A stretch of DNA of 33,153 nucleotides, taken from NCBI GenBank assembly GCA_013152355.1, contig JAADGO010000020.1:1-33153 (forward strand). The letters run 5' to 3'. The position numbers and the translations under genes are program-made. Below, piece by piece: positions 3,145-17,136 of this stretch. The notes under the pieces were generated by a model. That model did not search any database. It was not told the origin of the DNA and saw only the letters and a program-made list of their open reading frames with translations. How positions within the stretch are numbered: position 1 is the first letter of the stretch; every line of letters starts with the position of its first letter. The DNA comes from Chlorobiota bacterium (GTDB lineage: Bacteria > Bacteroidota > Bacteroidia > Bacteroidales > Prolixibacteraceae).

Positions 3145-3738
3145 TTGAAGGGTGATTCAGAAATATGGGAGAATTTTAAGAATGGGGATAAATCAGCTCT
3201 TTCATACATATATTTCCAGAATTTCCATTCAATGTTCCACTACGGGATAAAATTTAAAAACGATTCGGAATTTATAAAGGATTGTATTCAGGAAGTTTTT
3301 TTTAAACTAATTAAAGCCGGCAAAAGGTTAGGCTCTACCGATAATATCAGGTTTTATCTTTTCAGAGCCTTGAAGAACAGCATCTTGCGGGAGCTGGAAA
3401 ACAGCCGGAAGGTAGACTTTGTTGATGAATCACGGTTGAAATTCGAATCGCACTTTTCATTGGAAGAAGAAATCCTGCAAAAAGAAAAATTATCGTTACA
3501 GGAAAAAGCCCTTGCCGATGCTCTAAATAATTTGAGCAGCAGGCAGCGCGAAATAATTTATTTAAAATATGAATGTGGCATGGAATACAGCCAGATTTGC
3601 GAACTAATGTTTATCAATACCGACTCGGCAAGAAAACTGGTTTTCCGTGCAATAAGGTCACTAAAAGAGTTAATTAATAAACAAATCAATTCTTCGATAC
3701 TCTTTTTTATCCACCTCCGCAGGAAACATGTTCTTTAA
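3145..3738 (+). CDS. ECF RNA polymerase sigma factor (Bacteroidota FecI-like family)
   Basis: This 197-residue sigma-70 family protein has region 2 at about residues 20-85 (including DCIQEVFFKLI and the RFYLFRALKN segment) and the region 4 helix-turn-helix at about 122-176 (LSSRQREIIYLKYECGMEYSQI). The length is normal for the family. The start is TTG 3145, preceded by an AAAGGA ribosome-binding site at 3134-3139; no in-frame ATG occurs before residue 30, inside region 2. It precedes a FecR anti-sigma gene and a SusC with an STN domain, the standard arrangement of trans-envelope signalling in this phylum. It is predicted to activate the downstream susC operon when FecR releases it. A weak terminator-like hairpin overlaps its stop codon. 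Confidence 0.92.
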   Translation: MKGDSEIWENFKNGDKSALSYIYFQNFHSMFHYGIKFKNDSEFIKDCIQEVFFKLIKAGKRLGSTDNIRFYLFRALKNSILRELENSRKVDFVDESRLKFESHFSLEEEILQKEKLSLQEKALADALNNLSSRQREIIYLKYECGMEYSQICELMFINTDSARKLVFRAIRSLKELINKQINSSILFFIHLRRKHVL

Positions 3739-3800: not shown

Positions 3801-5045
3801 ATGGCAGCTAAAAAGGAACATAATTACTCTATTGAAGAACTTACCCAGGACAAAAAATTTATAAGTTGGGTCAAAGATGGGCTGAACCCTGAGGACTGGC
3901 AACAATTTATAAAAGAGAATCCACATAAAAGGAAAGATATAGAAACAGCAAGGAAGATTATTAATTTGCTGAAAACATCGGAATCCCCCATTGCAGAAGG
4001 AGAGGTTTATGCCGTTTGGAAAAATATCAACCTTTTTTATTCATTGTACCACAAGAAGCAGCGCAATACAGTATTGAAAAGGATGCTTAGGTATGCTGCC
4101 GTCTTTATAATTGCATTGTCAATCGGTGTTACCATACCCTATTTTTATTCACAATTAGGCAACCGGCAATTCAGCGAACTTAACATTTCTGATTCGGACT
4201 CATATTTGGGTGCTGCAAAGATAATTTTATCTGATGGTGAGCAGGTCGTACTGACAGAGAAAGAGTCAAGCCTGCTTTTTAACCCGGATGGGGCGGGAGT
4301 TAAAATTAATAACGATAGTATTGTTAAACAACATTACGACAGGAATAGTACTGAAGTACAGCCAATCCAGATAATTATGCCATTTGGGAAAAAATCAAAC
4401 CTGCAACTCCCCGATGGTACGGTTGTATGGCTAAATGCCGGGTCGAAGCTTGTTTTCCCGCCAACATTTAAGGGTAAGCACAGGAGGGTATACTTAAAAG
4501 GTGAAGCCTTTTTCAAGGTAGCAAAGAATAAACAAAAACCATTTGTGGTTAGCACCAACGATATAAATATCAATGTGTTTGGCACAGAGTTTAACATAAG
4601 GGCTAATAGTTCCGATAATGAAATAGAAGTAGTACTGGTTGAGGGGGAGATTAGCCTTAAAGAAAATAATATACTGAGCCTTTTAGGAAAAGAAATAAGG
4701 TTGAAACCCAGGCAAAGAGCAGTTTACAACAGGAATAACAATACTACTGATGTTACCTCTAATGTAGATGTAGATTATTATACATCATGGACAAAAGGGT
4801 TACTTGAATTCAGGCAGGAAAGCATTGTTAATGTATTCAGAAGGCTTTCAAGGTTTTATAATATAAAGTTTGTTGCCGAGAGGAGTGTTGAACTGAACAA
4901 GAAGATAAGCGGTAAACTGGATCTTAAAGAATCATTGGAAGATGTCCTCAAAGTAATCTCAGATGCAGTGCCAATCACATATAAGATTGAAGATGATAAA
5001 GTATTTGTTTACGGGAAACTGAATTATTTGCCTATGAGAAAATAA
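3801..5045 (+). CDS. FecR-family anti-sigma factor
   Basis: This 414-residue inner-membrane protein has a cytoplasmic N-terminus of about 95 residues, which should bind the sigma factor, and one membrane helix at about 97-116 (YAAVFIIALSIGVTIPY). The periplasmic FecR domain spans about 190-290 (LPDGTVVWLNAGSKLVFP, then YLKGEAFFKVA), and a C-terminal DUF4974 domain spans about 333-405 (FRRLSRFYNIKFVAE). By family knowledge the periplasmic part senses the STN domain of the partner SusC and controls release of the sigma factor. It lies 62 bases after the sigma gene and 87 bases before susC. The ATG at 3801 is the natural start; there is no strong Shine-Dalgarno site. Confidence 0.92.
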   Translation: MAAKKEHNYSIEELTQDKKFISWVKDGLNPEDWQQFIKENPHKRKDIETARKIINLLKTSESPIAEGEVYAVWKNINLFYSLYHKKQRNTVLKRMLRYAAVFIIALSIGVTIPYFYSQLGNRQFSELNISDSDSYLGAAKIILSDGEQVVLTEKESSLLFNPDGAGVKINNDSIVKQHYDRNSTEVQPIQIIMPFGKKSNLQLPDGTVVWLNAGSKLVFPPTFKGKHRRVYLKGEAFFKVAKNKQKPFVVSTNDININVFGTEFNIRANSSDNEIEVVLVEGEISLKENNILSLLGKEIRLKPRQRAVYNRNNNTTDVTSNVDVDYYTSWTKGLLEFRQESIVNVFRRLSRFYNIKFVAERSVELNKKISGKLDLKESLEDVLKVISDAVPITYKIEDDKVFVYGKLNYLPMRK

Positions 5046-5132: not shown

Positions 5133-8100
5133 ATGAAAAAAAAATTAATTGGATCTTGCTTTTTAAGTGAAAGCAAAAGAAACGTACTGAAGAAGATGAA
5201 ATTACTTATTGCATTCTTTTTTATCGGACTAATAACAGTTACTGCGAATACGTATTCTCAGCAGGTTAAGTTTAACTTTTCATTGAGTGATGTAACTGTT
5301 AAGGAGGTTTTTAAGCAGATCGAAGAAAACAGTGAGTTTATCCTGTTTTACAACGAAGATTATGTAAACGTAGGCCGTAAGGTAAGCCTGAACGCTAAAG
5401 AGAGCAATATTGAAGCTATCCTGGATAAGGTTTTTGAAGGCACTGGCAATACTTACAAAATCTACAATCGCCAAATTGTAATCCTGCCCGAAGGCAAGAA
5501 AGAGATCCCTTCGGTAATAAAATCCTGGCAGGAACAGCAGGAGCAGCAGGTTAGCGGGAAGATACTGAATAAAGATGGGGTTCCGTTACCAGGGGCTACC
5601 ATTGTGATAAAAGGCACTACCAAAGGTACTACTTCCGATGCAAACGGGAGTTTTAGCCTTGACGTTCCTGACGGCAACACCGTATTGGTAGTCAGGTTTA
5701 TTGGTTATTTGCAAAAAGAGGTAAAGTTGAAAGGGCAAACCAAAATTGATATTGTCCTTCAGGAAGACCTTGCAGACATTGGAGAGGTGGTTGTTACAGC
5801 ATTGGGTATTAAGAAAGATGCCAAATCACTGGCATATTCAACTACACAACTGGGGGGAGATGAATTTACCGAATCAAGGGAAGTCAACCTGGGGAATGCA
5901 TTAACAGGTAAAGTTGCAGGGGTTAATGTAACGAATGCAGCAACGGGTGTTGCCGGGTCTTCCCGCGTAATTATCCGTGGTAATACATCGTTGACCGGAG
6001 AAAACCAGCCGCTTTATGTTGTTGACGGAATCCCGATTGATAATTCAAACCTTGGGGCACCAAGGACAACCGGAGGCAGAGACTGGGGAGACGGGCTTTC
6101 AAGTATCAACCCCGATGATATTGAGTCTTTAACTGTGCTTAAAGGAAGTAATGCTGCCGCACTATATGGCTCAAGGGCTTCTAATGGTGTTATTTTAATA
6201 ACAACAAAACAGGGAGCTGAAGAAAAAGGGCTTGGCATTGAGTTCAATTCTAATATCGTTTTTGACCAGGTACAGGATTATTTTGATGTACAAACAGAAT
6301 ACGGGCACGGGAAGAAAAATCTTAAACCGTTGACCCAGGCTGAAGCTTTGCGTGGTGGTGTTGTAAACTGGGGGGGAAGGCTGGATGGAACTCCGGTAAT
6401 GCAATTTGATGGTGTAAAAAGGCCTTATGTCTATACAGGAAGTAAAATAGACCAGTTCCTTCAGGTTGGCCATACCTTCTCAAATAGTTTAGCCTTTTCA
6501 GGAGGGGATGCAATGAAGAACTTTAGGATATCTGCTTCCGACATGGAGAATAAAGCAACTATCCCTAATAGTGGGATGAGCCGTAAAACTCTTGCAATAA
6601 ATGCTAATAGTAAGATTGGTGATAAATTCTCTGTTTCTGCAAAAATTCAATACAGCAACGAGGTTGTGAAAAACAGGCCAAGGGTAGGCTCCCCTGTAAA
6701 TAATGTTAACTGGACCCTGGGTTATATGCCGGTATCAATAAACCTGGAAGACCTTAAAGGTCCAACCGACAAGCTGGGAGCCAATGCTGATGGGACAGAG
6801 TTGAAATATTCATCAAATGCTTATGTGCAGAACCCATACTGGACTGCTTATCAGGTAGAAACAAAAGACCAGCGGGATAGGATTATTGCTTCCGGGGTAT
6901 TGCGCTATAACCTTACAAACTGGCTATACATGCAGGGGCGGATTGGTACCGACTGGTTTGCTTCAAGAAGGAGGGACGTAACCCCTTATGGTGGGTCGGC
7001 CGACCCATTAGGGTTTATGAGTGAACTTGAAATAAGGCAAAGGGAAACCAATGCTGAATATATAATTGGAGGAGATAAAACATTTGGCAATTTTGGAATA
7101 AATGCCATATTTGGCGGCAACTGGATGAGGAAGTCATTTGAAGTACTGGGGACACGGGGAGAGAACTTTATAATACCGTTTTTCCACTCTTTGAATAACC
7201 TTGAAACCCAGATACCTGTTTTTAACCAGAGTGAAATAGGGATCAATTCTTTGTTTGGTTCTGCCGGGTTATCATATAAAAGTATCTTATTCTTGACTTT
7301 CACCGGAAGGAATGACTGGTTCTCAACCCTGGCCAAGGGGAATAATAGTGTATTTTATCCGAGTGTAGGGTTAAGTGCCGTTTTATCTGACGCTTTTGAA
7401 ATGCCCGAATGGCTTAGTTTTGTTAAGGTCAGGGGGTCTTATGCCCAGGTTGGTGGTGGTGCCAATACCCCTTATGGCACAAGTTTAACTTATAGCCTGG
7501 TTGGAGACGGGCATTTAGGTGTAGGCCGGGGGTTTATTGCTTCGCGTAATAACATTCCAAACCCAAAACTTAAGCCATATTTAGTTACAGAGTATGAAAC
7601 AGGGTTCGACATCAGGCTGTTTAACAATAGGTTCGGCATAGATTTTACCTATTACAATAAAAAGACAACAAATGATATACTGGATGCTATGGTTTCTAAA
7701 GCTACCGGCTTTAGTACGGCTAAAGTGAATGTAGGTGAGATGTTAAATCGTGGTATTGAAATATTAATAACAGGTACTCCTATAACAGGTGATTTTAGGT
7801 GGGATGTAAGCCTGAACTTTGCAAATAATACAAACAAAGTCCTGAAGTTGACTGAAGGAATTGATGTTTTGACAACAGCCAGGGCAAGGTCGAAAAGGGC
7901 CTGGATTGAAAATCGTATCGGGCAGTCATTCAGCTCTATTGCAGGATACAGGCAAAAAGTAATAAACGGGCAGAAAGTATATAGTGATAATGGGATGCCT
8001 GTAAGAGACAATGAAATTGTTTTATTAGGGAAAGGCGTAGCCCCGATTTCCGGTGGGTTCAACAATAATTTCCGGTATAAGAATTTTAATCTTAGTTTTC

Positions 8101-8567
8101 TGTTAGACTTTAGAGCAGGTGGGAGTATCTATTCTGAGTCGAATGCCAGGTTGTTAACTGCAGGGCTTCATAAAAAAACTATCCAGCAACCCAGGGAGGA
8201 AGGCCTCACTCTTCATGGTGTCAACGAAGCTGGGGAAGCTCAAACATTTACAGTTGCCCCTGAGAAATTAGTCGATTATTACTGGCGTTATTCCACGTTT
8301 ATTACTGAGAATATAATTTACAATAGTGATTTTATTAAATTACGGGAATTAGTTTTTGGCTACACCTTACCAAAAAAGTTTTTGCAAAAAACGCCTTTTT
8401 CTTCTGTAAACTTTTCGCTTGTCGGACGTAACCTGCTGTTAATTTATAGTGATATTGAAAATGTTGACCCTGAATCGGCTATTAATAGTTCGAACGACCA
8501 GGGATTTGAAATTGCAGCCGTCCCACCTGTGAGAAGTTTAGGTTTCAATTTAAAGGTAAAATTCTAA
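5133..8567 (+). CDS. SusC/RagA-family TonB-dependent outer-membrane transporter with N-terminal STN domain
   Basis: This is a 1144-residue protein. A signal peptide has its hydrophobic core at about 23-40 (KLLIAFFFIGLITVTA), with cleavage near TYS-QQ at 42. An STN (secretin/TonB N-terminal) domain spans about 46-118 and a carboxypeptidase-regulatory-like beta domain about 139-210 (GVPLPGATIVIKGT). A TonB-box-like segment lies near 217-224 (GEVVVTAL), then the plug (PLYVVDGIPIDN), and a large beta-barrel runs to a C-terminal LGFNLKVKF. It imports glycan fragments across the outer membrane with SusD. The STN domain plus adjacent sigma/FecR genes indicate a signalling transporter. ATG 5133 is the longest start; an internal Met at residue 22 would still leave a complete signal peptide. 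The susD start lies 4 bases after its stop. Confidence 0.96.
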   Translation: MKKKLIGSCFLSESKRNVLKKMKLLIAFFFIGLITVTANTYSQQVKFNFSLSDVTVKEVFKQIEENSEFILFYNEDYVNVGRKVSLNAKESNIEAILDKVFEGTGNTYKIYNRQIVILPEGKKEIPSVIKSWQEQQEQQVSGKILNKDGVPLPGATIVIKGTTKGTTSDANGSFSLDVPDGNTVLVVRFIGYLQKEVKLKGQTKIDIVLQEDLADIGEVVVTALGIKKDAKSLAYSTTQLGGDEFTESREVNLGNALTGKVAGVNVTNAATGVAGSSRVIIRGNTSLTGENQPLYVVDGIPIDNSNLGAPRTTGGRDWGDGLSSINPDDIESLTVLKGSNAAALYGSRASNGVILITTKQGAEEKGLGIEFNSNIVFDQVQDYFDVQTEYGHGKKNLKPLTQAEALRGGVVNWGGRLDGTPVMQFDGVKRPYVYTGSKIDQFLQVGHTFSNSLAFSGGDAMKNFRISASDMENKATIPNSGMSRKTLAINANSKIGDKFSVSAKIQYSNEVVKNRPRVGSPVNNVNWTLGYMPVSINLEDLKGPTDKLGANADGTELKYSSNAYVQNPYWTAYQVETKDQRDRIIASGVLRYNLTNWLYMQGRIGTDWFASRRRDVTPYGGSADPLGFMSELEIRQRETNAEYIIGGDKTFGNFGINAIFGGNWMRKSFEVLGTRGENFIIPFFHSLNNLETQIPVFNQSEIGINSLFGSAGLSYKSILFLTFTGRNDWFSTLAKGNNSVFYPSVGLSAVLSDAFEMPEWLSFVKVRGSYAQVGGGANTPYGTSLTYSLVGDGHLGVGRGFIASRNNIPNPKLKPYLVTEYETGFDIRLFNNRFGIDFTYYNKKTTNDILDAMVSKATGFSTAKVNVGEMLNRGIEILITGTPITGDFRWDVSLNFANNTNKVLKLTEGIDVLTTARARSKRAWIENRIGQSFSSIAGYRQKVINGQKVYSDNGMPVRDNEIVLLGKGVAPISGGFNNNFRYKNFNLSFLLDFRAGGSIYSESNARLLTAGLHKKTIQQPREEGLTLHGVNEAGEAQTFTVAPEKLVDYYWRYSTFITENIIYNSDFIKLRELVFGYTLPKKFLQKTPFSSVNFSLVGRNLLLIYSDIENVDPESAINSSNDQGFEIAAVPPVRSLGFNLKVKF

Positions 8568-8571
8568 ATAC

Positions 8572-10122
8572 ATGTTGATTATGAGATATTTAAATAAAAT
8601 AACAATATTTTTTCTTTCTACAATATTTGTAATCTCATCCTGTAATACAGATGAGTTGACTGATCTAAATATTAATCCGAATGCGGTTAACGAGATTGAT
8701 ATGAACCTTTTGCTTACCCAGGTTCAATTGCTAAATAATAATTCCGGCTATTCATTTGAAAAAACCTGGTGGTATTTGCCCGGATATATGCAATACATGG
8801 CTGCTACTCATGGCGTGTTGGATTTTGGTGATAAATACCTGAACTCAAGGCCGGAAGATTTAGCCGGTTTCTATGAAGACAGCTATCAGAATGCCGTTCT
8901 TAATGTTAATGAGATAATAGAGCATACTAAAGAAGACCCCGCTCAGAAAGGGTTGTATGCGGTTGCACGTATTATGAAGGTACTTGTGATGCACAGGCTT
9001 ACCGACTTTTACGGCGATATTCCTTATTCTGAAGCAGCAAAAGGATTCTCAGAAGGGATACTCCAGCCTAAGTTCGACCCGCAGGAAGGAATCTACCAGG
9101 ATATGTTAAAAGAATTGGAAGAATCGGTTTCAATAATTAAATCCGGGGCTTCTTTAACAAAACCTGAACAGGACATTTTCTACAAAGGGGATATGGCTAA
9201 ATGGAATAAGTTTGCTAATTCGCTGATGTTAAGGTTGGGGATGAGGATGTCAAAAGTGTCTCCTAATGGTGCTAAACAATGGGTGGCAAAAGCAATTTCC
9301 GGTGGATTGATGGAAAGTAATGATGATAATACGGTTTTATTGCATGCAAATGGGCCGTCAGACATAAACTGGAATCCATTGTCATTCTTAAATACGGATC
9401 CTGAGGTTGTAGGGTCAAAAATGTCGAGGACATTTATTGATTGGTTGAAAAACAATAACGACCCCCGCTTGATGATCTATACCATGGGGATTGGCCCTAA
9501 AGAAGGCCCCTTTGATGCAGACCCTGCCAATCAAAAGGGAATGCCCAATGGTTATGACGAAATAACTATCAAGCAGTATGAAGGGTTGCCTGAAACACAA
9601 GATGTTGACCTTGACCTCACCTATTCAACAATCAATGTATTATTGGTGTCACGCACATCACCATCGATATACATGAGTCATGCTGAGGTTGAGTTTTTGC
9701 TTGCAGAAGCATCTCAGCTAGGCTGGATCTCGGACGATGCTGCTGCTCATTACAATGCCGGGGTAACTTCCGCATTGAAACAGTACGCCATCTTTGACCC
9801 ATCATTCGAAGTTTCCGATGCAGAAGTACAAGAATACCTGGAAGCACATCCATATAATCAGGAGAAGGGGTTAGAAATGATTGGCGAGCAATATTGGGCC
9901 GTTAATTTTACTAATCCTGCAGAGGCATGGGCCAACTGGAGAAGGACAGGCTTTCCTGTATTAGAACAGATACAATACAAATATGGCTCTTATGATGATA
10001 AAATCCCCAGGAGGTTCCAGTACCCATTAGACGAACCTTCTGTTAACACTAAAAATTACAATGAAGTAATAGCAAGGCAAGGGCCTGATACTTGGCAGAC
10101 CAGAATTTGGTGGGATAAATAA
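8572..10122 (+). CDS. SusD/RagB-like outer-membrane glycan-binding lipoprotein
   Basis: This 516-residue protein has a lipoprotein signal peptide ending in the lipobox VISSC, with the lipidated cysteine at residue 24. The helical body carries typical SusD-like family 2 features: YMQYMAATHGVLDFGD near the N-terminus, a MHRLTDFYGDIPYSEA stretch, and a C-terminal WRRTGFPVLEQ with RRFQYPLDEP before a terminal RIWWDK. It should cap the SusC barrel on the cell surface and bind the glycan. It starts 4 bases after the susC stop, so the two are translated from one message. A second in-frame ATG at 8581 is an alternative start that removes three residues and leaves the lipobox intact. Confidence 0.95.
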   Translation: MLIMRYLNKITIFFLSTIFVISSCNTDELTDLNINPNAVNEIDMNLLLTQVQLLNNNSGYSFEKTWWYLPGYMQYMAATHGVLDFGDKYLNSRPEDLAGFYEDSYQNAVLNVNEIIEHTKEDPAQKGLYAVARIMKVLVMHRLTDFYGDIPYSEAAKGFSEGILQPKFDPQEGIYQDMLKELEESVSIIKSGASLTKPEQDIFYKGDMAKWNKFANSLMLRLGMRMSKVSPNGAKQWVAKAISGGLMESNDDNTVLLHANGPSDINWNPLSFLNTDPEVVGSKMSRTFIDWLKNNNDPRLMIYTMGIGPKEGPFDADPANQKGMPNGYDEITIKQYEGLPETQDVDLDLTYSTINVLLVSRTSPSIYMSHAEVEFLLAEASQLGWISDDAAAHYNAGVTSALKQYAIFDPSFEVSDAEVQEYLEAHPYNQEKGLEMIGEQYWAVNFTNPAEAWANWRRTGFPVLEQIQYKYGSYDDKIPRRFQYPLDEPSVNTKNYNEVIARQGPDTWQTRIWWDK

Positions 10123-10371: not shown

Positions 10372-12558
10372 ATGAATCAGATAAAAAAAATACTAATCCT
10401 TATTTTTTGCATAAACTTATTCATGCACCCATTGCAAGGGCAGCCTTCCGGTAAGCTACCTGCACCATTTTTAATAGTCCCGCAACCACAGGACTTAGAA
10501 TTGTTAGATGGCACAGGGCTTAGCAGCCTGGCAAACCTGAGAATTTCAGATGGGGTAAAACGCCCGGTGATGGGGCATTTGCTTTCCCAACTGGTTGAGG
10601 CCGCCGGCATAGGCGGAGGGGTGCTTACACTAAGGCTCGACAGTTCGGCATTGGTGCCTGCTTCCCCCGAAGGGTATGTTTTAACCATCTCAAACGGGCA
10701 AGCAGGAATAGTTGCCCGCGGGCAGCAAGGGATATTCTATGGCTGCCAGACATTGGAGCAACTCCTGGAAGATGCCCGTGACTTTAATAAACCAATACCT
10801 GCCTGTAAAATAACCGATTTCCCGGCTTTGGGGTACCGTGCCGTGCATTTCGATGTAAAACACCACCTCGACCAGATGAATTATTATTATGAGAGCATCG
10901 ATAGGCTTGCGCGTTATAAAATCAATGCAGTGATATTTGAGTTCGAAGATAAATTGCGTTACCGGCGGCAGCCACTGGTAGGGGCTCCCCAGGCAATCAG
11001 TATCGATGAAATGGCAGCCCTTACAAATTACGCACGTGAAAGGCATATCGAAATATCGCCACTGGTACAGGGGCTGGGGCATGCAACGTTCATCCTGAAA
11101 CACAAACATTACGAGCACCTGCGTGAACTGAAGGATAACCGCTGGGCATTTTGCCCTAAAGACGAAGGCACATACGAAGTTTTATTTGACCTTTACCGCG
11201 ATGCTATAGAAGCAACGCCCGGAGCAAAATACCTGCATATAGGCGGCGATGAGGTTGGCAATATTGGACTGTGCGAACGTTGTAACCCAACAGGCAGCGA
11301 AGAGGGGAAGCTGGGGTTGAATTTATATTGGCTGAAAAGGGTTTGCGACTTTGCCAATGCCAATGGGCGGACTCCTATTTTTTGGGATGATATGCCCCTG
11401 AAAGAGGCAGGGCTGTACAAAAGTACCTCTAAAAGTAGTATTGGCTTTGACGAGGCAAAAAAAATATGGGAATTGGGCAGCCCGAAATTGGAAGAGGTAA
11501 TTTCCGATTTCCCCAAAAACTGTGTTTATATGCGGTGGAATTACTCCAAAGCCCGCCAGCCGGGGAATATCTTTGCCCTCGATTGGTATCAGAAACATGG
11601 CTTGCAATCAATGATTTCAACTGCTGCTGTTTGTGGCCCTGCAGCCCTGTTCCCTTTTGACGACAGAGGTGGGGATATGGCCTCCCACGGAATACCGGCA
11701 ATTCAAAGTTTTATACAATTAGCAGCCGAGAAAGGGATTGGCGGTATGCTTTGCTCTGCCTGGGACGACCGCTCTGCACACATGGAAACGCACTGGCGCG
11801 GGCTTATCGCTTCTGCCGAATATAGTTGGTCGCCCAATGGCCGCACCCTTGATGAATACGATGAAGCCTATTTGCAACGGGAATATGGCACTACTGTTTC
11901 AAATTATGCAGATATTTACGGTATGCTAAGAAAAGCTGCCGTTTTTTGGGGAGGGGTGTTTAACAGGCAAGGCAGCCGTATGGATGTAGAAAACGCTTTG
12001 TTTAACCTGCCCGGACTTGCTCATTGGATGCCCCCAAGAGATAAAGCAGCTCCGATAAGGGCCGATTTTACCGGACTCCTTATTGAATTGCCCGATTTGG
12101 GCGAACCGGGTAGCTGGAGTAAAAAATACGGGGAGCGTTTAACCGAGGCAGAATCAATACTCAAAGAATACAAATATACTTCGTACGTACTCGACTCGCT
12201 GTATAAAACATCAAAAAGAAACCGCTACCATTGGGAGTTATTCTCAGTAATTAATAATTTCCAGGTGACTGCCCCTCATTTGCTCCTTGCCTTAAAGCAA
12301 TGCGATACTGCTGATAAAGGGCTGCAACTGGAAGGTGCAGAAAAGGTAAAACAAGCCGTAAACGGGTTTAATGAAGCCTGGCAGCAACTAAAAACTACTT
12401 ACGGGAAAACACGGTTTATTTCTTACCCTGTAAACTATGTCCCCGACCGGTATTACCATTTTGCAAGCCAGCGCGAAGACCTGTCGTGGATGATACAGGT
12501 AGAAGAGTTGTTCCATAAAATGGTTGATAATTGGATAACAAAGAATAATTTAAACTAG
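10372..12558 (+). CDS. Glycoside hydrolase family 20 beta-N-acetylhexosaminidase, exported
   Basis: This 728-residue protein has a signal peptide at 1-23 (ILILIFCINLFMHPLQG). A GH20b-type N-terminal alpha/beta domain spans about 33-150 (FLIVPQPQDLEL and GIVARGQQGIFYGCQTLEQLL). The (beta/alpha)8 catalytic domain begins near 154 with YRAVHFDVKHH. The catalytic Asp-Glu pair is D293-E294 in YLHIGGDEV. By family knowledge it removes terminal beta-linked GlcNAc or GalNAc by substrate-assisted catalysis; the Asp orients the acetamido group and the Glu is the acid/base. It should act in the periplasm on glycans taken up by the SusCD pair. It is followed 8 bases later by an SGNH esterase. By eye the gene is more GC-rich than its neighbours, and a repeat end lies 27 bases before its start. 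Confidence 0.9.
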   Translation: MNQIKKILILIFCINLFMHPLQGQPSGKLPAPFLIVPQPQDLELLDGTGLSSLANLRISDGVKRPVMGHLLSQLVEAAGIGGGVLTLRLDSSALVPASPEGYVLTISNGQAGIVARGQQGIFYGCQTLEQLLEDARDFNKPIPACKITDFPALGYRAVHFDVKHHLDQMNYYYESIDRLARYKINAVIFEFEDKLRYRRQPLVGAPQAISIDEMAALTNYARERHIEISPLVQGLGHATFILKHKHYEHLRELKDNRWAFCPKDEGTYEVLFDLYRDAIEATPGAKYLHIGGDEVGNIGLCERCNPTGSEEGKLGLNLYWLKRVCDFANANGRTPIFWDDMPLKEAGLYKSTSKSSIGFDEAKKIWELGSPKLEEVISDFPKNCVYMRWNYSKARQPGNIFALDWYQKHGLQSMISTAAVCGPAALFPFDDRGGDMASHGIPAIQSFIQLAAEKGIGGMLCSAWDDRSAHMETHWRGLIASAEYSWSPNGRTLDEYDEAYLQREYGTTVSNYADIYGMLRKAAVFWGGVFNRQGSRMDVENALFNLPGLAHWMPPRDKAAPIRADFTGLLIELPDLGEPGSWSKKYGERLTEAESILKEYKYTSYVLDSLYKTSKRNRYHWELFSVINNFQVTAPHLLLALKQCDTADKGLQLEGAEKVKQAVNGFNEAWQQLKTTYGKTRFISYPVNYVPDRYYHFASQREDLSWMIQVEELFHKMVDNWITKNNLN

Positions 12559-12566
12559 AATAAACT

Positions 12567-13667
12567 ATGTTACGGTTAATATTTACCTTTTCCTGTGTTT
12601 TTGCTATTACCCCTCTTTTTGCCCAAGCCAAAATGATTGATAATTCAAAAGACAATCAGATTGTCAGGTATTATAACAACGATTATTTTGTAATAGAAGG
12701 GACGGGTATCCCTGAAGCAGATAAAGAAAGCCCATACGACAGGTTGCCAAAATCGTACAAAGGAAAAGTGCGTAAGCCTGTATGGAATTTGTCCAAGTCT
12801 TCGGCAGGGATAACAGCCAGGTTTTTGTCGAACTCAAACATAATTAAAGTAAGATGGGAAGTATTGGAAAACCTTACGATGAACCACATGGCCGAAACCG
12901 GGATTAAGGGCATTGACCTGTACCTGAAGGATGGAGGTAATTGGAGGTACGTGAATACTGCAAGGCCGCAGGGGAAAATCAGCGATGTACTTCTAATAAA
13001 CAATATGCCTGGTAAAATGCGGGAATATAAACTATTCCTGCCTTTATACGATGGCGTGGTAAGCCTTGAGGTAGGCATTGACTCATTGAGCCAGATTGTT
13101 AAGCCCCAAAGGAGAAAGGGGAAACCTATTATTTTTTATGGGACAAGTATTACTCAGGGAGGGTGTGCCTCCCGTCCGGGAATGGTACATACCAGTATTA
13201 TCTCGCGCAAACTGAATGTTGAGTGCATTAACCTGGGTTTTAGCGGAAACGGCAAGATGGAAAAACCAATTGCCGAGGTTATAGCAGGTATCGATGCCTT
13301 GTTTTATGTGATTGATTGTGTCCCTAATATGGATTCGGCAGAGATACACCAGAATGCTATTCCCCTACTTGAAATTATCCGAAGCAAACGGCCAACTACT
13401 CCTGTTGTTTTTGTGGAAAGGATGATTCCGGAAAAAGCAATCTTAGACGAAGTAGCCAGAAATAATTCCTATGGTAAAAACAAAGCCCTCAGGATAGAGT
13501 TTGAAAAAATGCTTCAGAAAGGTTTTACCAACATATATTATATAAACAACCAGGGGGGATTGGGCTCCGATGGAGAAGCAACTGTTGATGGTTCGCATTA
13601 TACAGACTTAGGCTTTATGAGGTTTGCAGATTTTCTTATCTCAAAATTCAAACAATTTAATTTGTGA
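12567..13667 (+). CDS. Exported GxDLY/SGNH-type esterase
   Basis: This 366-residue protein has a signal peptide at about 1-20 (LIFTFSCVFAITPLFAQ). An N-terminal beta domain includes the GIKGIDLYL segment (residues 112-120) that defines the SGNH_hydro_N/GxDLY family. The hydrolase domain follows from about 185, with block I YGTSITQGG (nucleophile Ser194), block III GFSGNG (oxyanion Asn228) and the DGSH block giving D341 and H344 of the triad. Members are carbohydrate esterases or lipases. Beside a GH20 enzyme, removal of O-acyl groups from amino-sugar glycans is a reasonable role, but the acyl group cannot be read from the sequence. It lies 8 bases after the GH20 gene, so the two are in one operon. 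Confidence 0.87.
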   Translation: MLRLIFTFSCVFAITPLFAQAKMIDNSKDNQIVRYYNNDYFVIEGTGIPEADKESPYDRLPKSYKGKVRKPVWNLSKSSAGITARFLSNSNIIKVRWEVLENLTMNHMAETGIKGIDLYLKDGGNWRYVNTARPQGKISDVLLINNMPGKMREYKLFLPLYDGVVSLEVGIDSLSQIVKPQRRKGKPIIFYGTSITQGGCASRPGMVHTSIISRKLNVECINLGFSGNGKMEKPIAEVIAGIDALFYVIDCVPNMDSAEIHQNAIPLLEIIRSKRPTTPVVFVERMIPEKAILDEVARNNSYGKNKALRIEFEKMLQKGFTNIYYINNQGGLGSDGEATVDGSHYTDLGFMRFADFLISKFKQFNL

Positions 13668-13704
13668 TTTGGTAAAAAACAGGATAGGTATAAACAAGAG
13701 ATAC

Positions 13705-14226
13705 ATGAAAACAAATAATACAAATACAACAATACAATCGGTTGCATTAATAATACTACGGCTTTTAATAGGATGGCATATATTGTTCGAAGGGATTTCG
13801 AAATTATTAAGTCCGGGTTGGTCATCAGCAGAGTTTTTAAAAGAGTCAAAATGGATACTTGAAGGCTTCTCACGGTGGGTTCTCTCAAACCAGGGCGTAC
13901 TAAATGCAATCGATTTACTGAATACATGGGGGTTGATAGCAATTGGGGTTGGGTTGATTTTAGGGTTGTTTACCCGTACTGCCGCAATTTCGGGGGCATT
14001 GCTCCTTTTTATATATTACCTGAGCAACCCGCCCCTGATAGGTTTGGAATACTCAATCCCAACCGAGGGGAATTACCTGGTTGTTAGCAAAACATTGATT
14101 GAGTCGGTGGCTTTGCTGGTAATAGCAGTTTTCCCAACTAGCCGGGGTTTTGGGTTAGATATGTTTGTATCACGAATTTTTAGTGCAATGAAGTTGTTTA
14201 AAGTTAAAGTGGATTTTCGAGAGTGA
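13705..14226 (+). CDS. DoxX-like integral membrane protein
   Basis: This 173-residue protein starts at ATG 13705. The frame is open from 13624, but that would overlap the esterase gene and add a hydrophilic non-DoxX leader. Four hydrophobic segments are seen: near 12-28 (ALIILRLLIGWHILFEG), 70-90 (WGLIAIGVGLILGLFT), 93-110 and 130-145 (ESVALLVIAVFP). The RLLIGWHILFEGISKL motif and the GLFTRTAA turn are typical of DoxX, a family named for the small subunit of thiosulfate:quinone oxidoreductase and often found with redox enzymes. It lies between the esterase and a Tat-exported oxidoreductase, which suggests an electron or quinone link. The last 12 residues (from MKLFKVKV) are encoded inside a repeat element, so the native C-terminus may have been altered. 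Confidence 0.8.
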   Translation: MKTNNTNTTIQSVALIILRLLIGWHILFEGISKLLSPGWSSAEFLKESKWILEGFSRWVLSNQGVLNAIDLLNTWGLIAIGVGLILGLFTRTAAISGALLLFIYYLSNPPLIGLEYSIPTEGNYLVVSKTLIESVALLVIAVFPTSRGFGLDMFVSRIFSAMKLFKVKVDFRE

Positions 14227-14354
14227 CAGATTGATTCTCAGTGGCAAAGCTCGGTTTTTCTTGCATAGCCAAAGCTATGGAAGGGAAATTAGCTGAAGTC
14301 CAATGGAATCAAGATGTTACTCGCAGGTTTTCAATTTGACTTTAAACAACTTCA
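14189..14354. mobile_element. 166-bp MITE-like imperfect palindrome
   Basis: The left end TGAAGTTGTTTAAAGT (14189-14204) is exactly inverted at 14339-14354. Beyond these 16 perfect bases the arms keep pairing imperfectly for the whole length (ATTGATTCTC left against its counterpart near 14302-14312). At the centre is the hairpin CATAGC-CAAA-GCTATG (14264-14279), exactly at the midpoint. There is no open reading frame. It begins inside the DoxX gene and ends 22 bases before the next start codon. This is the layout of a non-autonomous transposon or a REP/BIME-type element that folds as a long hairpin in RNA. Confidence 0.7.
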
Positions 14355-14360
14355 ATGAAA

Positions 14361-14367
14361 AAGGAGG
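14361..14367 (+). promoter_or_regulatory. Strong Shine-Dalgarno site of the oxidoreductase gene
   Basis: AAGGAGG lies 9 bases before ATG 14377. A near-perfect ribosome-binding site is uncommon among the genes of this window and fixes the start. Confidence 0.7.
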
Positions 14368-14376
14368 AGAAAAAAA

Positions 14377-15978
14377 ATGGCAGGGAAAAAAAATAAACCG
14401 GTACAGGGGAATGAAGCAAGTAGCCATTCCGAAAAAAAACAGGTGTTAACACGCAGAGGAGTATTGAAATCCCTGGCAGGAATCCCTGTCCTGGGGGTAT
14501 TTGCTTACGGGCTCTTAGAGAAGCAATCATACGACCATCAGAAGAAACAAAATGTTTTAAATGAGTTGGGGCTTGATGATATAAAACGCCCTGGCATAAT
14601 AAAAAATACAGCCGGCAAAAAAGGCAGTTTACTCAGAGTAGGAATTGTTGGTTTTGGAAGCAGGGCGAACGCTTTGTCCAGAGGCATGGGTTTTATGCAC
14701 CCTAAGGATATAGAATTCAGTAGGAAAAGGGGGACATTGGATAACTGGCTTGCACAGGAGAATTTAAATATTGCAGTAACAGGCATTTGCGATGTGTTCG
14801 ACCTACATGCACAAAAGGGGTTAGAAACGGTGCGGGGAGGCCTTTACCCGGGAGGAGGCCCTGATACTACCCTGGAGGTTAAGCGGTTCAGGCATTACCA
14901 CGAAATGCTGGAAAGTAAAGATATTGACGCTGTTGTGATAGCTACCCCCGAGCACCACCATGCACAAATGACTATTGATGCTGTACATGCCGGGAAGCAT
15001 GTGTACTGCGAAAAAAGTTTTACCCGTACAGAGGAGGAATTATATGCTGCTTATGATACTGTGAAAAATAGTAAAATAGTATTCCAGTTGGGGCATCAGA
15101 TTGCAAAAAATATTGTTTTTAAACATGCACGGAAGATTATTAAAAAGGATATTCTCGGAAAAATAACATTGATAGAAGCCACAACCAACCGGAATACTGC
15201 CCATGGGGCATGGATCAGGCATCTTGACAAGCAGGGTAACCCCAAGCCGGGAGACAAAAAATCAATTGACTGGGCTCAATGGCTGGGTTCAAGGCCTTAT
15301 GTCCCTTTTAGCATCGACCGTTACTACAACTGGACAAAATGGTTTGATTACAGTACAGGCTTACTGGGGCAGTTATTCACACACGAGTTTGACGCGGTTA
15401 ACCAGCTTTTACATATAGGAATCCCTGAATCAGTTGTTTCATCGGGGGGTATATATTATTGGAAAGACAACCGTGAGATACCTGATGTTTTGCAGTCGGT
15501 TTTCGAGTACCCGGAAAGGGAACTAACGCTGGTATACAGTGCCAACTTAGCTAACAGCCGCCAGCGTGGCCGTGTTTTCATGGGCCACGATGCTTCTATG
15601 GAGCTTGGAGGGTCATTGTCGGTAACTGCCGATATCAACTCAACCCGCTACAAAGACAAAATAGCGAAGGGAATTATCGACCCATCGTACCCTATGTTCT
15701 CATATAACCCTTTATCGGGGGGGATTGATGCAGTCTCTTCAGCTACCGAGAAATATTATGCCTCAAGAGGCCTGACCGATACGTTTATAAATGGAAAACG
15801 TACCGATGTTACCCACCTGCATATCAAGGACTGGGTTGATTGTATCCGTAACGGTGGGACACCTGGCGCTAACATTGATTTAGCCTTTGAAGAAGGGGTT
15901 ACTGTATTAATGGCACATAAATCATACATCGAAAAAAGAAGGGTCAAATGGGATCCGGTAAAAAGAAAAATAGTCTGA
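14377..15978 (+). CDS. Twin-arginine-exported Gfo/Idh/MocA-family oxidoreductase
   Basis: This 533-residue protein has a Tat signal (TRRGVLKSLAG, Arg26-Arg27, then a hydrophobic stretch to about 46). The Rossmann fold begins at LRVGIVGFGSRA (86-97). The motif VVIATPEHHHAQMT (187-199) leads to GKHVYCEKSF, with Lys213 at the conserved EKP lysine; the following proline is replaced by Ser. The C-terminal alpha/beta domain carries YYNWTKWFDYSTGLLGQLFTHE, a signature of Bacteroidota and Planctomycetes members. These proteins bind NAD(P) and oxidise or reduce sugars; some relatives (GH109 type) cleave glycosides by a redox mechanism. Tat export implies folding with cofactor before translocation. Clustering with GH20, esterase and DoxX points to glycan processing in the periplasm. 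The exact reaction is unknown. Confidence 0.87.
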   Translation: MAGKKNKPVQGNEASSHSEKKQVLTRRGVLKSLAGIPVLGVFAYGLLEKQSYDHQKKQNVLNELGLDDIKRPGIIKNTAGKKGSLLRVGIVGFGSRANALSRGMGFMHPKDIEFSRKRGTLDNWLAQENLNIAVTGICDVFDLHAQKGLETVRGGLYPGGGPDTTLEVKRFRHYHEMLESKDIDAVVIATPEHHHAQMTIDAVHAGKHVYCEKSFTRTEEELYAAYDTVKNSKIVFQLGHQIAKNIVFKHARKIIKKDILGKITLIEATTNRNTAHGAWIRHLDKQGNPKPGDKKSIDWAQWLGSRPYVPFSIDRYYNWTKWFDYSTGLLGQLFTHEFDAVNQLLHIGIPESVVSSGGIYYWKDNREIPDVLQSVFEYPERELTLVYSANLANSRQRGRVFMGHDASMELGGSLSVTADINSTRYKDKIAKGIIDPSYPMFSYNPLSGGIDAVSSATEKYYASRGLTDTFINGKRTDVTHLHIKDWVDCIRNGGTPGANIDLAFEEGVTVLMAHKSYIEKRRVKWDPVKRKIV

Positions 15979-16055
15979 CTGTTTTGAAAAAATTCGTTCC
16001 TCCACAACTTTTCCATGCGGTCAGTAAATCCCCTGCACAATAGAATTAGGACAAT

Positions 16056-16096
16056 GAGGTATAGCCGCTACCCACCTTTAAAAGTGGGCTTACCTC
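16056..16096. terminator. Nested hairpin between convergent genes
   Basis: GAGGTA (16056-16061) pairs with TACCTC (16091-16096). Inside it CCCAC (16071-16075) pairs with GTGGG (16084-16088) around a TTTAAA core. It lies between the oxidoreductase stop (15978) and the channel stop (16099), where a two-way terminator is expected. T-runs are poor on both sides. Confidence 0.45.
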
Positions 16097-16098
16097 TC

Positions 16099-17136
16099 TC
16101 ATTCTTCTAATGACTCTCTTAACTTCTTAATCTGGGGAGGGCTGCCAATTACGAAGAGTTTATCGTTCCGTGAAATTATCATGCCCGGGTCGGGGTTAAA
16201 AACATACCTGGCGTCACTGACCTTGATCCCAACAATATTGGTGCCCGATACATCCTGGACTTTTAGCTCCGCTATTGATTTCCCAACAAACCGTTGAGCC
16301 ATGTTATCACACGAAACTTCTTCAATACTAACGTCTTTACTTGTTTGCATCAGGATATGCTCCAGGAACTCAACCACATTGGGCTGAATAACCAGTTTTG
16401 CCATTCGTTGCCCCCCTATACGTTCAGGCATAACTACATTAGACGCCCCCGCGCGCTTTAATTTCATGTGCGATTCTATTTCCGAAGCACGGCTAATGAT
16501 GGTCAGGTTGGGGTTCATACTTCTGGCTGTAAGTACCACAAAAACATTATCTGCATCGTTTGGGGTCGTTGCAATCAAAGCTTTTGCCTTATGCACCCCG
16601 GCCTGCTCCAACAATTCCTCATGAGTTGCATCGCCTTTTATATAAAGGAATTCGGGGTTCTCACGGATACGTGAAATAACATTGTCCCGCTTGTCGACAA
16701 CCACAAAGTCGATACCATGCCCGGCAAGTTCAATGGCTGCCTGCTCTCCATTCCTGCCATAACCAACAATTATTACGTGGTCTTTCAATTTTGCTATCTT
16801 CTTGTCCACTCTGTATGTTTTAATGTAATTAATAAGTTCACCATCAAACACAAAACGGGCCATATTCGACCCCACATACGCTAAGCTCCCCAGGCTGGTG
16901 AATATAAGAGCCATAGTAAAAACCTTCCCTGCCGGGGTTAAGGGGGTCTCGCCAATTTCGCGGAATCCAACTGTCGACATGGTAATAACAGTCATGTAAA
17001 GGCTATCAAGCATTGAATAACCCTCAATTATATGATACCCGTATGTTCCGCTAAAAACTATAAATACCAGTAAGCCTATTCCAACTTTAATAGTTTTGCT
17101 CGAAGCTTTCTGAAACCTATTTATCTGCTGGTTCAT
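16099..17136 (-). CDS. Potassium channel with C-terminal RCK (TrkA-N/TrkA-C) domains
   Basis: This 345-residue protein has a two-helix pore module: TM1 at about 17-34, a pore helix with selectivity filter TMSTVGF (residues 52-58) and TM2 at about 70-92. The cytoplasmic RCK module follows: a Rossmann fold with VIIVGYGRNGEQAA (121-134), the acidic strand end FVVVDKRD, and a TrkA-C domain near 255-345. This is the MthK/Kch-like architecture, in which the RCK ring gates the pore in response to a ligand such as a nucleotide or divalent ion. The filter has TVGF in place of the common TVGYG and lacks the second Gly, so strict K+ selectivity is less certain. It lies 6 bases after the DUF2851 gene, in the same operon. 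Confidence 0.88.
   Translation of the reverse strand: MNQQINRFQKASSKTIKVGIGLLVFIVFSGTYGYHIIEGYSMLDSLYMTVITMSTVGFREIGETPLTPAGKVFTMALIFTSLGSLAYVGSNMARFVFDGELINYIKTYRVDKKIAKLKDHVIIVGYGRNGEQAAIELAGHGIDFVVVDKRDNVISRIRENPEFLYIKGDATHEELLEQAGVHKAKALIATTPNDADNVFVVLTARSMNPNLTIISRASEIESHMKLKRAGASNVVMPERIGGQRMAKLVIQPNVVEFLEHILMQTSKDVSIEEVSCDNMAQRFVGKSIAELKVQDVSGTNIVGIKVSDARYVFNPDPGMIISRNDKLFVIGSPPQIKKLRESLEE

Follow-up and report, generated by a model that had tools for sequence, protein, structure and literature searches.

A locus with a DoxX and Gfo/Idh gene pair

The window analysed here, a stretch of 33,153 nucleotides from a Chlorobiota bacterium (contig JAADGO010000020.1), carries on its forward strand four genes in a row: a secreted GH20-type hexosaminidase, a secreted GxDLY/SGNH esterase, a DoxX-subfamily membrane protein and an exported Gfo/Idh/MocA oxidoreductase. 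An earlier note, made from the sequence alone, had named these four genes and placed them in one glycan locus, and the open reading frames (ORFs), Pfam profiles and motifs agree with it. Across relatives, the last two genes form a fixed module; the full group of four is not conserved.

The hexosaminidase gene (10372..12558, + strand, 728 amino acids) matches the Pfam GH20 catalytic domain at 55.9 bits (cut-off 22.3) and GH20b at 48.1 bits, and its GGDE block at 11242-11253 holds the catalytic Asp-Glu. The esterase gene (12567..13667, +, 366 amino acids) matches Lipase_GDSL_3 at 204 bits and GxDLY at 155 bits, carries the motifs GTSITQ (13140) and DGSH (13587), and has 4lhs as a relative in the PDB. 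The DoxX gene (13705..14226, +, 173 amino acids) passes the gathering score of Pfam DoxX (PF07681) with 31 bits against a cut-off of 23.6; the ORF given by the program runs from 13624 to 14226 with a TTG start, and the ATG at 13705 fits the start of the homologues. By analogy with a modelled fused homologue, the product is predicted to form four membrane helices.

The oxidoreductase gene (14377..15978, +, 533 amino acids) matches GFO_IDH_MocA (PF01408) at 49.1 bits against a cut-off of 24, and its product, probably membrane-anchored, was modelled by AlphaFold with a predicted local distance difference test (pLDDT) of 86.7 and a predicted template-modelling score (pTM) of 0.85. Comparison of the model in VIA confirmed the Gfo/Idh fold, with Z of 31-35 to many Gfo/Idh structures over more than 300 aligned residues; among many near-tied Gfo/Idh structures, the best rows include the NAD-dependent (nicotinamide adenine dinucleotide) glycoside hydrolases 8qc8/8qc2, and lower down glucose-fructose oxidoreductase. 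Conservation was read from alignments of 62 of 93 usable Gfo/Idh proteins, 59 of 88 DoxX proteins and 31 fused proteins. The GxGxR dinucleotide-binding motif, present in the window as the Rossmann motif GIVGFGSR (14641..14664, +; G89, G92, G94 and R96), is invariant in all 62, as are E212 and K213. The codon of Lys213 (15013..15015, +), which lies in CEKS in the window protein and in EKP in other clades, stands at what we take to be the position of the catalytic lysine of the Gfo/Idh family. H336 is likewise found in 62/62. Many Gfo/Idh enzymes have Asp four residues ahead of this His; here residue 332 is Gln (41 proteins), Asp (12) or Asn (9), so the chemistry may differ from that of classical members.

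Linkage of DoxX to the oxidoreductase

The Gfo/Idh family was drawn from 61 related genomes and from 80 named loci, the best 80 of at least 545 confirmed matches and thus a sample that favours close relatives. Eleven rows were removed by hand from L038-L150 and the window before counting: L040, L096, L094, L099 and L104 are the same contigs as kept loci; L055 is a short contig without a duplicate, on which DoxX does adjoin the Gfo/Idh gene; and within L066-L070, L067 is a contig-edge fragment and the others fall outside the family under study. Merging of the remaining 103 anchors at 95% identity left 96 non-redundant loci, and neighbour clusters were named from one representative each.

DoxX is found at the Gfo/Idh gene in 92 of the 96 loci. 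Clustering places it nearby in 89, without exception on the strand of the Gfo/Idh gene, and within these it lies directly upstream in 79, directly downstream in 8, and two genes upstream or two genes downstream in 1 each, with gaps mostly between -40 and +40 bp. Inspection added three further loci, namely L042, where the gene caller had missed a gene recovered by tblastn, L084, which retains a remnant at a contig edge, and L120. A reading of L120 as a natural DoxX-Gfo/Idh fusion was rejected, the ORF crossing a stretch of N. In the most distant Gfo/Idh clade (L057-L065, 37-43% identity), of which G005 and G010 hold many paralogues, DoxX is downstream and not upstream.

Presence and absence were compared over 296 Bacteroidota genomes (E <= 0.001 for the DoxX subfamily, E <= 1e-60 for Gfo/Idh). 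Both families occur in the same 7 genomes and neither in any other, and all 9 Gfo/Idh copies there have DoxX adjacent; the probability of such a match by chance is about 3e-14, a figure that disregards shared ancestry. The 61 relatives yielded 58 matches to the DoxX subfamily, 28 stand-alone and 30 within open frames of about 500-580 amino acids. Stand-alone DoxX lies directly beside Gfo/Idh in 27 of 28 cases and one gene away in the other (L063), and 28 of the 29 full-length Gfo/Idh proteins in these genomes have DoxX, the exception being G043:C58 (L041). Positions occupied by W, H, E, K and N are near-invariant in the DoxX alignment.

The earlier note had proposed that DoxX serves the exported oxidoreductase, and had called for a neighbourhood survey of the two. 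The conserved linkage, the matching distribution over genomes and the fusion of DoxX to a second oxidoreductase fold all support this. The note mentions neither the flavinylation-like motif, nor the fused proteins with their Tat-type helix behind four membrane helices, nor the amino-sugar genes near some of the loci, which are described below. Its further proposal, that the hydrolases belong to the redox system, was not upheld: GH20 occurs in 10/96 loci and the SGNH esterase in 4/96, and both were rejected as fixed partners.

A shared anchor helix and a flavinylation-like motif

Near its N-terminus the window oxidoreductase has the sequence LTRRGVLK and a twin-arginine helix (14452..14520, +; RR at residues 26-27, then PVLGVFAYGLLEK). 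RR is present in 62/62 aligned relatives and K31 in 61/62, and residues 26-63 form a single helix in the model. From this helix we infer export by the twin-arginine translocation (Tat) pathway, and the anchor, predicted to remain uncleaved, probably holds the enzyme in the membrane. Co-occurrence of TatC says little, because TatC is present in 58/61 genomes.

A homologous helix recurs in the long DoxX frames, of which 15 of 30 were read; a further search, over 295 genomes, supplied more fused proteins. All 15 have an N-terminal DoxX, a linker, an RRExLKxLAxLPxLGAF-like helix and then some 300 residues; Pfam, NCBIfam and PDB sequence searches with the fused members scanned match DoxX only. Their RR helix is homologous to the N-terminus of the window oxidoreductase (E 5.6e-6), and RR is kept in 31/31 aligned fused proteins. 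An AlphaFold model of one member, L161 (31 sequences; pLDDT 79.8, pTM 0.57), has a mostly confident C-terminal domain and a disordered, low-confidence stretch at 173-228. The domain has an aldo-keto reductase (AKR) fold by VIA (4exa; Z 20.9, root-mean-square deviation 3.1, 235 residues aligned, 12% identity); nearly all of the 50 VIA matches listed are aldo-keto reductases or Kv-channel beta subunits, and the Foldseek matches listed also include other TIM barrels. The window's own genome holds a stand-alone relative of this domain without DoxX (L185/L228, at G000:C28:8023-8760; 287 amino acids, 29% identity).

The fused family resembles dual Sec-Tat proteins in its layout: an even number of DoxX helices, four, is followed by RR directly before the last membrane helix, as seen in the one model with its low-confidence 173-228 stretch. 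The last helix has a mean KD17 of 1.29, against 1.42-2.08 for helices 1-4, and the 14 residues after it hold on average 2.8 K/R (minimum 1) and 1.8 D/E. In the accessible part of PMC5449189, actinobacterial Rieske proteins, Sco3746, polyferredoxin and long YkuE have membrane helices and then RR before a last helix that is less hydrophobic and has positive charge after it; the present proteins share the position of RR and may share the other two traits. They differ in having an AKR-fold domain with a flavinylation-like motif, or in having the helix on a separate protein, and the main text of PMC5449189 does not contain the word 'DoxX'.

In D-x-x-[ST]-G-A-[ST] it is the final residue that receives flavin mononucleotide (FMN) from ApbE, according to the accessible parts of PMC12052999 and PMC8238504. 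A similar motif, DAVSSAT, occupies residues 451-457 of the window oxidoreductase (15727..15747, +), with Thr457 as candidate FMN site. Over the 62 aligned Gfo/Idh proteins these residues are D in 62, [ST] in 61, [ST] in 62, A in 62 and [TS] in 62, and in the 31 fused proteins D in 29, [ST] in 31, [GS] in 31, A in 30 and [TS] in 31. As a regular expression, the relaxed form D-x-x-[ST]-[GST]-A-[ST] matches 94/96 Gfo/Idh anchors, 0/33 other Gfo/Idh proteins and 5/873 other neighbour proteins. In AKR-domain ORFs longer than 400 amino acids the strict motif is found in 23/35 and the relaxed one in 29/35, and among the six without it are three that have little or no DoxX, two in which Asn replaces Asp and one in which Ser replaces Ala. 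The motif begins within a stretch of pLDDT <50 (448-453) in the Gfo/Idh model and lies inside the disordered linker of the fused model. That the residues stay fixed where the chain is poorly ordered, and this in two folds that are unrelated but have the anchor helix and DoxX in common, suggests modification, although the replacement of Gly in the Gfo/Idh proteins counts seriously against it.

An ApbE gene lies near 4/96 loci (L138, L145, L146 and L056) against a rough expectation of 0.65, and three of the four come from Aminicenantes or Neomarinimicrobiota records. In L056, DoxX, Gfo/Idh, a second Gfo/Idh, a 3-keto-disaccharide hydrolase, a TIM-barrel protein, ApbE and TatC follow one another within 9 kb. 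On the Aminicenantes contig L145, a NusG domain II protein (L145:7194-7964) adjoins the ApbE gene beside the DoxX-Gfo/Idh pair, so this ApbE may belong to a different system. A distinct ApbE-like subgroup (about 310-330 amino acids, no obvious signal peptide) is encoded amid exported Gfo/Idh genes in four genomes (L229:5602-6531, L230:7029-8021, L231:8385-9317 and L232:8140-9060), in some with 3-keto-disaccharide hydrolase-like genes nearby; no neighbour of these four genes carries the flavinylation-like motif, and the loci were not used as support.

Surroundings, mechanism and rival explanations

Upstream of the four genes, and all on the + strand, lie an extracytoplasmic function (ECF) sigma factor (3145-3738) and a FecR anti-sigma factor (3801-5045), both recognised by Pfam and NCBIfam, followed by SusC (5133-8567; TIGR04056 at 655 bits, cut-off 368) and a SusD-like protein (8572-10122; PF12771), which makes this a glycan-uptake locus. 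A promoter and terminator scan of 13500-16200 gave no more matches than shuffled sequence. At 228-2753, before the sigma factor and FecR, an 841-amino-acid protein has a tetratricopeptide-repeat C-terminal part and, N-terminally, a weak mannosyltransferase-like match below cut-off; a potassium-channel protein (Ion_trans_2, TrkA_N, TrkA_C; 16099-17136) borders the locus on the opposite strand.

Elsewhere the neighbours of the module are mixed: further Gfo/Idh in 24 of the 96 loci, SusC in 20, DUF6807 in 18 and alpha/beta hydrolase in 18, together with NagP-like transporters in 12, NagA-like proteins in 12 and NagB-like proteins in 10. For NagA-like proteins about 0.4 loci would be expected by chance, a rough estimate from about one strong NagA match per genome. 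Amino-sugar glycosides are thus perhaps the substrate in part of the family, which would match the GH20 of the window. A 3-keto-disaccharide hydrolase (DUF1080) occurs in 16/96 loci against a rough expectation of 4.3; enriched and not obligate, it was rejected as a fixed partner.

Our preferred reading, to which we assign a probability of about 0.55, is that the oxidoreductase is a nicotinamide dehydrogenase that is exported, stays anchored in the membrane and hands its electrons by way of a covalent flavin to DoxX and then to quinone. Gfo/Idh enzymes use NAD(P) to oxidise sugars. The window enzyme would fold in the cytoplasm around its nicotinamide cofactor, be exported by the Tat pathway and be anchored by its uncleaved helix beside four-helix DoxX, the two proteins making a single membrane complex. 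On the periplasmic side it would oxidise a hydroxyl group of a sugar, most likely the one at C3 of a glycoside; the substrate in the window locus would perhaps be an N-acetylhexosaminide that SusC/D deliver and that the GH20 enzyme and the esterase trim. The periplasm lacks a free NAD pool, and for this reason the bound NADH would be re-oxidised in place, its electrons moving to FMN attached covalently by ApbE at Thr457, then to DoxX and into the quinone pool. The fused proteins, in which the helix and a motif-bearing linker join DoxX to the AKR-fold domain, would work likewise. More tentatively, and at somewhat less than even odds, both may belong to one new class, in which two unrelated nicotinamide-type folds (Gfo/Idh and aldo-keto reductase) are exported folded by Tat, share a homologous RR anchor, are flavinylated, and are docked or fused to a quinone-reducing DoxX.

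Parts of this arrangement have counterparts in known systems. Glucose-fructose oxidoreductase of Zymomonas has the Gfo/Idh fold (VIA Z 32.7); it is exported with its cofactor bound, recycles its NADP by a second sugar, and is not known to have a membrane partner. BT2158, described in the accessible part of PMC11300592 as a periplasmic glycoside 3-dehydrogenase of Bacteroides, represents a type (NF058561; Alistipes AL3, PDB 8tdf/8tdh) that is likewise a glycan-acting Gfo/Idh and is the best NCBIfam and PDB sequence match of the window protein. The latter, however, scores 107 bits against the NF058561 cut-off of 750, and the features found for BT2158 in that part of the source include neither DoxX, nor an RR anchor helix, nor the motif. 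Thiosulfate:quinone oxidoreductase, of which DoxD is a subunit, fused to DoxA in Acidithiobacillus (PMC6335251, as far as accessible), likewise pairs or fuses a small DoxX/DoxD membrane subunit with a redox partner, and its electrons go to quinone; no DoxA was found at the present module, whose partner is instead a nicotinamide-type enzyme. ApbE-flavinylated carriers (NqrB/C, RnfG, DUF2271, DUF3570, Flavodoxin_4 and FMN_red) carry a comparable motif, D-x-x-[ST]-[G/S]-A-[ST], in an extracytosolic part with a membrane component alongside, whereas in the Gfo/Idh of the module the Gly is mostly replaced. Neither 'gfo' nor 'doxx' appears in the main texts of PMC8238504 and PMC11334425, and in the literature on DoxX with Gfo/Idh, polysaccharide utilization or flavinylation and ApbE, drawn mostly from outside subscription journals, no paper joins them.

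Several observations weigh against the preferred reading. No DoxX adjoins the Gfo/Idh gene in L041, L097, L119 and L140 (4/96 loci). DoxX scores below the DoxD cut-off (PF04173, 15.3 against 22.7 bits), its quinone site and its role as a quinone reductase are conjectural, and the AKR-fold domain, as modelled, may be no working reductase. The strict G motif is present in just 2/96 Gfo/Idh proteins, Gly being Ser or Thr in nearly all, and a G-to-A change is reported, in the accessible part of PMC12052999, to halve flavinylation. ApbE itself proves little by its presence, because it is found in 56/61 genomes; no ApbE match was obtained in G030, a 99%-complete genome that carries a fused homologue; and its neighbourhood to Gfo/Idh is not specific, because the ApbE-like subgroup adjoins Gfo/Idh proteins without the motif.

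In the least improbable of the alternatives, bound NADH passes hydride or electrons straight to a quinone held by DoxX, and the D-x-x-S-S-A-T loop acts as a structural element or a lid and not as a flavin site. Neither the linkage to DoxX nor the occurrence of two exported oxidoreductase folds depends on the motif, and the canonical Gly is absent from most Gfo/Idh members. Such direct transfer is nevertheless unlikely in our judgement, since the motif is fixed, with T/S exchange at the acceptor, in a low-confidence loop and a disordered linker of unrelated folds, and its strict G form occurs in 23 of the 35 AKR-domain ORFs.

Also improbable, and ranked next, is redox-neutral glycoside cleavage or a self-recycling NAD enzyme of the GH109, GH188, glucose-fructose oxidoreductase or aldose-aldose oxidoreductase type, with DoxX as an assembly or anchoring partner. 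Exported Gfo/Idh enzymes that retain their cofactor are known, and 8qc8/8qc2 stand among the best VIA rows with glucose-fructose oxidoreductase lower down, but fold scores so nearly tied do not discriminate. General Pfam and NCBIfam scans of the window proteins gave no GH109 profile, though the oxidoreductase may still belong to that family, and no GH109 structure is among the fold matches listed, which was not counted as evidence. A self-contained cycle needs neither a flavin-type motif nor a dedicated DoxX whose W, H, E, K and N positions hardly vary; the GH109-type mechanism that the earlier note had offered as an alternative is not favoured, since it requires no membrane electron carrier. 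That DoxX only helps to insert or hold the Tat helix, in biogenesis or docking and without redox chemistry, much as preceding membrane helices do in dual Sec-Tat proteins, would suit the layout of the fused form, in which RR stands before the final helix and K/R residues follow it, but is the most doubtful explanation, since most Tat-anchored proteins need no such partner and the DoxX subfamily occurs in the 61 genomes only at the Gfo/Idh family or in long fused frames.

Taken with the preferred reading of a flavin-linked dehydrogenase, the module suggests an undescribed electron route from extracytoplasmic sugar oxidation into the membrane, and it would be a respiratory periplasmic dehydrogenase, with a fair chance of forming a new class. 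Exported nicotinamide enzymes face the problem that no free NAD pool is at hand, and DoxX with a tethered flavin would solve it by coupling sugar oxidation to respiration. The widespread and little understood DoxX family would gain a concrete partner, ApbE chemistry would reach Gfo/Idh and aldo-keto-reductase-fold enzymes, and a group would be added both to the flavinylated proteins and to the dual Sec-Tat proteins. If the reading is true, NAD chemistry is open to Bacteroidota and neighbouring phyla beyond the cytoplasm, for the oxidation of glycan hydroxyls, and some of the exported Gfo/Idh genes that are so numerous in the glycan loci of Bacteroidota would gain a testable role.

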